Below the pieces are notes generated by a model. That model ran no database searches. It worked only from the letters and a program-made list of their open reading frames with translations, and had not been told where the DNA came from. The position numbers were made by a program, and so were the translations under genes. Shown in pieces: positions 21,464-23,946 of a stretch of DNA of 64,000 bases. The stretch's first letter is position 1, and the number at the start of each line of letters is the position of its first letter. This stretch comes from Dermabacteraceae bacterium TAE3-ERU27. Its GTDB lineage: Bacteria; Actinomycetota; Actinomycetes; Actinomycetales; Dermabacteraceae. The stretch covers positions 310,001 to 374,000 of the forward strand of contig JAHUUL010000001.1 in NCBI GenBank assembly GCA_019218415.1, given 5' to 3'.

Positions 21464-22921
21464 ATGGTTGAGTTCAGTCCTTCCCCCGCTAGCAGTGCAG
21501 ACATCGGCGTTACCGGCATGGCGGTGATGGGGTCCAACCTGGCCCGCAACCTGGCCCGCAACGGCTTCAAGGTGGCGATCCACAACCGCAGCACCGGAAA
21601 GACCAAGGCTGTCATGGACGCGCACGGGGATGAGGGCCAGTTCTTCCCGGCCGAAACCATGGACGACTTCGTTAATTCCCTGCAGAAGCCCCGCGTCGCC
21701 CTGATCATGGTGAAGGCCGGCCCCGCCACCGACGCCGTGATTGAGGAACTCGCCTCTCGGATGGAAGAGGGCGACATCATCGTGGACTGCGGTAACTCCC
21801 TCTTCAGCGACACCCGCCGCCGCGAGGCCGCCCTGCGCGAGCGCGGCCTGCACTTCGTCGGCGCCGGAGTTTCCGGCGGCGAGGAGGGCGCGCTTAACGG
21901 CCCCTCGATCATGCCCGGCGGCACCGTAGAGTCCTACGACCGCCTCGGCCCGATGTTCGAGAAGATTTCCGCGCAGGTAAACGGCGAACCCTGCTGCACC
22001 CACGTGGGTGCCGACGGTGCCGGACACTTCGTGAAGATGGTGCACAACGGCATCGAATACGCCGACATGCAGGTTATCTCCGAGGCTTACGACATCATGT
22101 CGCGCGCCCTCGGAATGAGCGCCGCCGAAATCGCCGAGGTGTTCGCCGCCTGGAACCAGGGACCGCTCGAGTCCTACCTGGTGGAGATCACCGCCGAGGT
22201 GCTCGCGCACGTAGACCCCAAGACGAAGCAGGCCTTCGTTGACATCGTGGCCGACCGTGCGGGACAGAAGGGGACCGGCGCCTGGACCGTGCAGACCGCC
22301 CTCGACCTCGGGGTTCCGGTCACCGGTATCGCCGAGGCAACCTTTGCCCGCGCGGTCTCCGGTTCCGTGCCGCAGCGCACCGCGGCCCTGTCGGCCCTGC
22401 CCGCGCTCGCCGAGGATGTTGCGATCGAGGACCGCGCCGCCTTCATCGAGGATCTGCGCAAGTCCCTCTACGCCTCCAAGCTGGTCGCCTACTCGCAGGG
22501 CTTCGACGAGATCAACGCTGCCGCCGAGGAATACGGCTGGGCTATCGACCGTGGCGCCATGGCGCGTATCTGGCGCGGTGGCTGCATCATCCGCGCCCGC
22601 TTCCTGGATCGCATTACGGAGGCCTACGAGCGTAACCCGCAGCTGCCCCTGCTGCTGGCCGACGAATACTTCACCAAGGAAATTTCCGATGTGGTTCCGG
22701 CCTGGCGTCGCGTGGTTTCCTTCGCTGCGCGCGCGGGCTTCCCGGTGCCGGTGTTCGCCTCCACCCTGTCCTACTACGACGCGATTCGCTCCGAGCGTCT
22801 CCCCGCAGCCCTGATCCAGGCGCAGCGCGACTTCTTCGGTGCGCACACCTACCAGCGCATCGACCGCGAGGGAACCTTCCACACCCTGTGGAGCGGCGAC
22901 CGCAGCGAGGTGCAGGAGTAA
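21464..22921 (+). CDS. gnd: 6-phosphogluconate dehydrogenase, decarboxylating
   Basis: Oxidative decarboxylation of 6-phosphogluconate to ribulose 5-phosphate with NADP+, in the pentose phosphate pathway. 485 aa, close to the usual 470-480. The N-terminal nucleotide fold has IGVTGMAVMGSNLARN; substrate residues lie in 'GAGVSGGEEGALNGPSIMPGG' in outline and 'GHFVKMVHNGIEY' (catalytic Lys); the all-helical C-terminal domain runs to 'YQRIDREGTFHTLW'. ATG 21464 has TAGGAG upstream. A long GC hairpin follows at 22942. Confidence 0.98.
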   Translation: MVEFSPSPASSADIGVTGMAVMGSNLARNLARNGFKVAIHNRSTGKTKAVMDAHGDEGQFFPAETMDDFVNSLQKPRVALIMVKAGPATDAVIEELASRMEEGDIIVDCGNSLFSDTRRREAALRERGLHFVGAGVSGGEEGALNGPSIMPGGTVESYDRLGPMFEKISAQVNGEPCCTHVGADGAGHFVKMVHNGIEYADMQVISEAYDIMSRALGMSAAEIAEVFAAWNQGPLESYLVEITAEVLAHVDPKTKQAFVDIVADRAGQKGTGAWTVQTALDLGVPVTGIAEATFARAVSGSVPQRTAALSALPALAEDVAIEDRAAFIEDLRKSLYASKLVAYSQGFDEINAAAEEYGWAIDRGAMARIWRGGCIIRARFLDRITEAYERNPQLPLLLADEYFTKEISDVVPAWRRVVSFAARAGFPVPVFASTLSYYDAIRSERLPAALIQAQRDFFGAHTYQRIDREGTFHTLWSGDRSEVQE

Positions 22922-22941
22922 CCCGCACCCCGCGCGCCAGC

Positions 22942-22987
22942 GCGAATCCGTGCGGCCGCCTATGAACGGTGGCCGCACGGGGTTCGC
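22942..22987 (+). terminator. GC-rich hairpin after gnd
   Basis: GCGAA-TCCGTGCGGCC pairs with GGCCGCACGGGGTTCGC across a 13-base loop, with one bulge. No T tract follows, so termination may be inefficient. Confidence 0.6.
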
Positions 22988-23048
22988 GCAGGCATTTCGG
23001 GGCGGTATAAAATCTAAAGCGCGGCGGTTGTTCAGCAACGCGGCGTTT

Positions 23049-23124
23049 GCCCCTCTAGCCCAACGGTAGAGGCAGAGGACTTAAAATCCTTGTGTTCCGG
23101 GTTCGAATCCCGGGAGGGGTACCA
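23049..23124 (+). tRNA. tRNA with UAA anticodon, short variable loop (nominally Leu)
   Basis: 76 bases including an encoded CCA. Acceptor stem GCCCCTC pairs with GAGGGGT (one G-U), D stem GCC/GGC with a 10-base loop containing GGTAGA, anticodon stem GAGGA/TCCTT with loop CTTAAAA (anticodon TAA), T arm CCGGG-TTCGAAT-CCCGG, discriminator A. The variable region is only five bases (GTGTT), whereas bacterial tRNA-Leu is normally class II with a long arm. The three-pair D stem and A73 are leucine-like. Identity is therefore uncertain. Confidence 0.88.
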
Positions 23125-23208: not shown

Positions 23209-23946
23209 GTGGCACAGGTGACCAACACGCCGGGAGCACAGTGCCTAACCGCTCGGATCGACGCCGTGCTGGCACGCATAGCTGGGGCAGCGCAAGATGC
23301 CGGGCGCGACCCGGGAACGGTGCGGCTGGTGCTCGCCAGCAAAACCCGCTCCCCGCAGGAAATACGGACGGCTCTCGAATACCTATCCGGGCTGGGAATA
23401 AGCCCCGTGACGGGAGAGAACCGGGTGCAGGAGCTCGCGAAGCACTCCGACCTCGCAGACATCCCCTACGAACTGCACATGATCGGGCATCTGCAGCGCA
23501 ATAAGCTCTCCCATGCCATGCGCAGTTGCAGCATGATCCACAGCCTGGACAGGGAAAGCCTGCTCACGGCGGTGCTCAGAAGGCACGGGGAAGAGCCCGC
23601 TGCCACCCCTAGCGTGCTGCTCCAAGTGAATACATCGGGTGAGGCCAGCAAAGGCGGCTTCGCGCCGGAGCATGAACTGCTGGCCGACGCAGCCGGGCGC
23701 CTGCTTGAGGCGGGCGTGCCGCTGCGCGGACTGATGACCATTGGCGCGCGTAGTGCCGACCTCGGCCGCGTGCGCGCCTCCCTGGCGCTGCTGCGGCAGC
23801 TGCGCGACGAGCTGGCGCTGCCCGAAGTGCGGGAGCTATCTATGGGGATGAGCGGCGACCTCGAACTAGCCATAGCGGAGGGGGCGAGTCTGGTGCGGGT
23901 CGGCTCTGCCGTGTTTGGCCCTCGCACGGCTCAGCCCGGGGCGTAA
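23209..23946 (+). CDS. YggS/PLPBP family pyridoxal-phosphate homeostasis protein
   Basis: 245-aa single-domain TIM-barrel PLP carrier that balances cellular pyridoxal phosphate; no enzyme activity is established. Lys45 in LVLASKT is the Schiff-base residue. Family motifs follow: 'GENRVQEL', 'ELHMIGHLQRNK', 'LLQVNTSGEASKGGF' and the phosphate loop 'LSMGMSGDLELAI'. GTG 23209 has GAGGGA just upstream. It lies about 85 bases after the tRNA. In many actinobacteria it neighbours cell-division genes, but not here. Confidence 0.94.
   Translation: MAQVTNTPGAQCLTARIDAVLARIAGAAQDAGRDPGTVRLVLASKTRSPQEIRTALEYLSGLGISPVTGENRVQELAKHSDLADIPYELHMIGHLQRNKLSHAMRSCSMIHSLDRESLLTAVLRRHGEEPAATPSVLLQVNTSGEASKGGFAPEHELLADAAGRLLEAGVPLRGLMTIGARSADLGRVRASLALLRQLRDELALPEVRELSMGMSGDLELAIAEGASLVRVGSAVFGPRTAQPGA

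Follow-up and report, generated by a model that had tools for sequence, protein, structure and literature searches.

A class I tRNA-Leu(UAA) with a short variable loop in a Dermabacteraceae genome, and its occurrence in other bacteria and phages

The tRNA gene, its fold and its neighbours

The window, namely the whole stretch of 64,000 nucleotides analysed from Dermabacteraceae bacterium TAE3-ERU27, contains one tRNA only according to ARAGORN, which calls tRNA-Leu(taa) exactly at 23049-23124 of the forward strand (76 nt including an encoded CCA end at 23122-23124). The Rfam covariance model RF00005 matches 23049-23121 with 59.5 bits and an E-value of 2.7e-11 and pairs every arm, and the two programs together bear out the initial annotation of a complete tRNA with encoded CCA and anticodon TAA. 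Specifically, with the position numbering assigned by hand from the sequence and all parts on the forward strand, the 5' strand of the acceptor stem (GCCCCTC, 23049-23055) pairs with GAGGGGT at 23114-23120 in seven pairs that include G1.U72, the D arm (23058-23073) has a three-pair stem GCC/GGC followed through its loop by A14 A15, G18 G19, U20, A20a, G and A, and the anticodon TAA (UAA, 23082-23084), which reads UUA, lies in the loop CTTAAAA and is followed by A37 A38. The T stem has five pairs (sequence and RF00005), the variable loop is GTGTT (23092-23096), its last base, U48, standing opposite A15, and the discriminator is A73 (23121).

The tRNA therefore departs from class II tRNA-Leu in the absence of the long variable arm, which is replaced by five bases, and retains the other marks of the isotype: a leucine anticodon, A73, A15-U48, G18 G19, A20a and the three-pair D stem. 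The short loop is placed with high posterior probability by the covariance model and is given by ARAGORN as well, so that a misread long arm is rejected and the class I assignment stands. The D-arm layout matches that of the class II tRNA-Leu of the genomes compared, and the three-pair D stem and A73, which had been called leucine-like from the sequence, are indeed common to both. A combined pattern of D arm, anticodon loop and T arm has one match in the window and none in dinucleotide shuffles (0/100), which rejects a chance resemblance to a tRNA. Thermodynamic folding is weak evidence (z -1.64, with a minimum free energy structure in which the D and anticodon arms are partly wrong), and an argument for the cloverleaf from energy alone is set aside.

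The gene stands alone, with the 6-phosphogluconate dehydrogenase gene (21464-22921, PF00393) on one side and, on the other, a yggS-like gene (23209-23946, forward strand, PF01168) that is not functionally part of the tRNA and is its neighbour in relatives. Of 168 loci, 14 have the yggS-like gene beside the tRNA, and 13 of these come from other genomes, so that among relatives the tRNA looks like a settled chromosomal gene rather than a recent arrival. An inverted repeat at 22927-23003, 3' of the 6-phosphogluconate dehydrogenase gene, is perhaps the terminator of that gene; its match to mir-2241 falls far below the family cut-off and is presumably due to chance.

The host genome is a draft of 1,998,373 bases in 37 contigs, rated 98.05% complete. 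A search with RF00005 gives 48 matches, at which ARAGORN finds 46 distinct entries; four of these, with the leucine anticodons CAA, CAG, GAG and UAG, are class II tRNA-Leu, and the class I gene at 23049-23124 is the sole UAA tRNA. The listing of host tRNAs proposed in the initial annotation thus returns no normal class II tRNA-Leu(UAA) among the 46 entries, and its absence is likely, although the assembly is 98.05% complete and a gap between contigs could hide one. The sister species carries an identical short tRNA-Leu(UAA) gene, and many relatives have a gene of this type too.

Leucine identity features and the D-arm motif

In the excerpted text of a tRNA identity review (PMC9976931), the long variable arm is treated as common to cytosolic tRNA-Leu, while the leucine identity of E. 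coli is ascribed to A73, A15-U48, G18 G19 and A20a, the long arm not being crucial, and human mitochondrial tRNA-Leu(UUR) is described as functioning without a long arm, with A73 and A14 as main determinants. As far as that text describes it, the mitochondrial tRNA is organellar and has its own LeuRS, whereas the host gene lies on a bacterial chromosome with a single LeuRS that also serves class II tRNA-Leu.

The E. coli identity features A15-U48 and A73 are conserved in the class I UAA family. A census of 161 unique class I UAA sequences, from which loci of at least 15 kb and tRNAs whose T loop could not be recognised were excluded, has U48 in 161/161, A15-U48 in 159/161 and A73 in 158/161, and A14, A15, A20a, U48 and A73 occur all together in 147/161. 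Among 37 unique class II tRNA-Leu sequences, A15-U48 and A73 are present in 37/37, while the other class I tRNAs of the host genome have A15-U48 in 7 cases out of 35 and AGA after position 20 in none (0/35). Since the D-arm motif partly defined the search and the patterns partly fix A14 A15, the conservation of these two bases does not count as independent evidence, unlike that of U48 and A73 and the anticodon census. Within the D stem, pairs vary with pairing kept (10-25 as G-C, T-A or A-T; 11-24 as C-G, T-A or G-C), and a few members break pair 10-25 or 11-24. Compared with class II tRNA-Leu (L096-L115 for UAA; the host CAA, CAG, GAG and UAG genes), the class I form has in common A14 A15, A15-U48, the three-pair D stem, A20a, A73 and a leucine anticodon; it differs in having no long arm, in a variable loop of five bases that often reads NCAGU, and in C12-G23 and C13 where class II has G12-C23 and G13.

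One genus departs from the discriminator rule. Specifically, the class I tRNA-Leu(UAA) of four genomes of genus g6 (L035, L036, L037, L045) has G73 together with G1.U72, and the class II leucine tRNAs read from genomes of this genus have A73. In the tRNA-Ser of E. coli, G73 acts as an antideterminant against LeuRS. Between two g6 genomes, UUA nevertheless faces leucine at 48 of 51 sites (18/21 without TTA itself) and, in reverse, at 43 of 49 (12/18); the few cross-genus TTA sites against the host (G000) face leucine in 3/9 (from G010) and 4/12 (from G012), numbers too small to be decisive. Some open reading frames in these codon samples look like antisense or spurious frames.

The D arm was also searched without anticodon constraint, in viral contigs and in 148 actinomycete genomes. 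At least 120 viral stretches carry the motif, and the phage motif tRNAs called among the matches listed are all leucine (127/127) and all short, with six anticodons (UAA 54, UAG 36, CAA 24, AAG 6, GAG 5, CAG 2). The motif occurs in 115 of the 148 actinomycete genomes, where the motif tRNAs among the matches listed are again leucine without exception (150/150; CAA 67, UAA 65, UAG 17, CAG 1). Over all collected loci, 284/284 unique tRNAs with the strict motif have a leucine anticodon and 0/1,106 unique non-leucine tRNAs have the motif, while a relaxed motif also admits four phage tRNA-Phe in a shifted register. The D-arm motif is a putative mark of leucine identity irrespective of the anticodon. 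The CAA and UAA anticodons in the census indicate that many actinomycetes have class I leucine tRNAs for UUG in addition to UUA. For UUA, and often for UUG, many actinobacteria, including Mycobacterium and Corynebacterium species with the UAA form, seem to depend on a leucine tRNA that lacks the long arm. An excerpt of a paper on M. tuberculosis mentions a long variable loop 'especially' in tRNA-Leu-2, 3 and 5 (PMC11541572), a wording that fits two short M. tuberculosis tRNA-Leu without saying so.

Individual phage genes illustrate the form: the UAA tRNAs of Serratia phage Kamaji and Mycobacterium phage Kykar and the UAG and CAA tRNAs of Escherichia phage wV8 are class I tRNA-Leu with a short loop and a closely similar D arm. 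The D arm has the TAGCCCAA start in the Kamaji, Kykar and wV8 UAG genes, whereas in the CAA gene of wV8 pair 10-25 is different. These tRNAs differ from the host gene in being phage-borne and in bearing several leucine anticodons, and they are annotated merely as tRNA-Leu. The presence of both a UAG and a CAA gene of class I in an E. coli phage, wV8 (L347), hints that such tRNAs may be substrates of E. coli LeuRS as well.

Distribution among bacteria and phages

The tRNA was matched by BLAST in 37 of 58 genomes of relatives, and 30 of the loci were read, 27 being tRNA-Leu(UAA) of 74-77 nt and three tRNA-Lys. Of the 296 genomes of the class, 117 match a strict class I UAA pattern with the same D arm and 44 match a class II UAA pattern; with the patterns used, no genome appears in both lists, and a script comparison of the class II genomes with the rows listed from the D-arm search likewise gives no overlap. 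The remaining 135 genomes match neither pattern. A looser anticodon/T-loop pattern, run in 58 of them, matched 44, a number in which short forms, long forms and chance matches are mixed; 20 short-spaced matches picked by hand from it are all tRNA-Leu(UAA) (20/20, 74-79 nt). In families f35 and f36 (e.g. G223, G282, G291, G153), the patterns used find no UAA tRNA of either class; a further search there returned mostly tRNA-Lys-like matches, so that a UUA reader is missing from the results for several of these genomes. A class I tRNA-Leu(CAA) is present in several genomes of f36.

A scan of GTDB genomes for the class I UAA pattern gives at least 119 stretches, and 79 of the 80 among the matches listed are called tRNA-Leu(taa), the remaining one (L195) being interrupted by the end of its stretch. 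The actinobacterial genera among the matches listed are Mycobacterium, Nocardia, Corynebacterium, Gordonia, Rothia, Arthrobacter, Microbacterium and Pseudonocardia; outside the class, the same matches include Acidimicrobiia, Rokubacteria, Planctomycetota, a deltaproteobacterium, a Chloroflexaceae MAG and the cyanobacteria Cylindrospermum and Moorena, the taxonomy of MAG matches being as assigned in the source records. A search of plasmids returned nine records. In the Rokubacteria locus, the class I tRNA-Leu(UAA) stands in the order Gly-Cys-Leu, as in E. coli glyW-cysT-leuZ. The short form thus extends across actinobacteria, relatives and phages, and the class I tRNA-Leu(UAA) is a widespread, little-noticed variant rather than the oddity of a single genome.

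Other arrangements were seen beside these. All five leucine tRNAs of a tRNA array in Cylindrospermum sp. NIES-4074 (L160) are short, its UAA and CAA genes having the TAGCCCAA start of this D arm, and a large tRNA cluster of the Chloroflexaceae MAG (L147) combines class I tRNA-Leu (CAA, UAA) with class II tRNA-Leu (GAG, CAG). The UAA tRNAs of two further loci (L342 and L343, from G230 and G100) have nine bases in the variable region, GTCGAACGT, and their D arm does not resemble that of the family; they are perhaps an intermediate or a separate type.

Within the open-licence PubMed Central literature, no explicit description of a class I tRNA-Leu(UAA) in bacteria was found; annotation pipelines already label the class I form tRNA-Leu, and the wider pattern was not found described in that literature. 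The initial annotation had allowed that the short tRNA might prove universal and known as a normal leucine tRNA in the family: the comparison across actinobacteria supports its presence in much of the class (117/296 genomes, with the identical gene in the sister species), while no explicit statement of its normality was found. A similar case is the tRNA-Leu(TAG) with a short variable loop that the excerpted text of PMC6582537 places in a tRNA cluster of Mycobacterium mucogenicum, likewise a short-loop actinobacterial leucine tRNA and already published; as described there, it is an extra clustered copy beside a normal isoacceptor, whereas the host tRNA is a lone gene and the sole UAA tRNA found. 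Allo-tRNAs have an 8/4 or 9/3 acceptor branch in the available part of PMC7609411, from which the host tRNA differs by its seven-pair acceptor stem, five-pair T stem, short loop and A73.

These comparisons make it moderately probable that class I leucine tRNAs form a distinct lineage, widespread in bacteria and phages, with the D arm CCAA..GGNAGAG and the variable loop NCAGU, replacing class II isoacceptors anticodon by anticodon (UAA here; CAA and UAG elsewhere).

Meaning of the UUA codon and probable charging with leucine

In a codon alignment of 274 kb of the host genome with the sister species, with TTA masked, TTA sites face leucine in 98 of 105 cases; 49 of these are TTA again, and other leucine codons stand at 49 of the remaining 56. 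In the reverse direction, TTA faces leucine at 110 of 118 sites. Against another genus, leucine is found at 14/32 TTA, 76/148 TTG and 76/164 CTA sites, so that TTA is similar to the other two. TTA is the rarest leucine codon of the host genome (1.52 per 1000 codons) and is present in 70 of 201 sampled host genes; its counts by fifths of the gene are 32, 18, 20, 25 and 22, with a mild 5' excess only (32/117). The count of TTA codons by gene that the initial annotation had called for is thereby supplied.

Among 22 hand-chosen genomes of both kinds, each has one LeuRS above the cut-off (22/22), whose single frame is split into two matching stretches, and no second LeuRS was seen. Very probably, judging from the sequence comparisons, the class I tRNA-Leu(UAA) is a normal leucine tRNA of unusual build that decodes UUA and is charged by the single LeuRS, for which the long arm would be dispensable. 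LeuRS would read A73 and the geometry of the D loop and core (U8-A14, A15-U48, G18 G19, A20a and the three-pair D stem), features that the class I tRNA(UAA) and class II tRNA-Leu have in common, and would not require the long variable arm; charged with leucine, the tRNA would then act as a plain decoder of UUA. The proposal builds on direct observations (the structure, the sole UAA tRNA in the draft, the conservation, the leucine-only anticodons, the UUA-leucine alignment and the one LeuRS gene) and extends them, as we infer, to expression, leucylation and ribosomal use.

Three readings had been left side by side from the sequence, a charged tRNA that decodes the rare codon UUA, a regulatory tRNA and a tRNA charged with another amino acid, and the codon alignment, identity features and anticodon census favour the decoder, with leucine as the probable amino acid. 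A regulatory role like that of Streptomyces bldA would mean that UUA is excluded from growth genes and that the amount of the tRNA turns translation of genes with UUA on or off. The host tRNA resembles bldA tRNA-Leu(UAA) in being the sole UUA decoder found, and the rarity of TTA and its mild excess in the first fifth of genes agree with such a role. However, most Streptomyces genes are kept free of UUA according to the excerpted text of PMC4255298, whereas here TTA occurs in a third of the sampled genes, far from near absence in growth genes, and is spread along them; moreover, the UAA tRNA of Streptomyces-like genomes (L108-L115) is class II, unlike the host form. On the spread of TTA, bldA-like regulation is rejected and retains a very small probability.

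Charging with a non-leucine amino acid, by which UUA would be recoded or ambiguous, seems slighter still: it could appeal to the missing long arm, said to typify tRNA-Leu, and to G73 in genus g6, but the codons that face UUA in relatives are leucine codons, on which recoding is rejected, and the tRNAs with the D-arm motif bear leucine anticodons only. An equally faint chance attaches to a pseudogene or a tRNA working outside translation, with a class II tRNA-Leu(UAA) hidden in an assembly gap; the 37 contigs of the draft leave room for it, whereas the intact pairing and encoded CCA, the identical gene in the sister species and the lack, with the patterns used, of any genome with both forms speak against it.

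As normal leucine tRNAs of unusual build, class I tRNA-Leu would be naturally occurring substrates with which to test what LeuRS reads, and their G73 members would offer a direct test of how absolute the A73 requirement is. They are relevant to annotation by isotype models and to enzymes that sort tRNAs by the variable arm. If the distinct lineage is real, it would be a natural demonstration that bacterial leucine identity needs no long arm and that one genus has dispensed even with A73.
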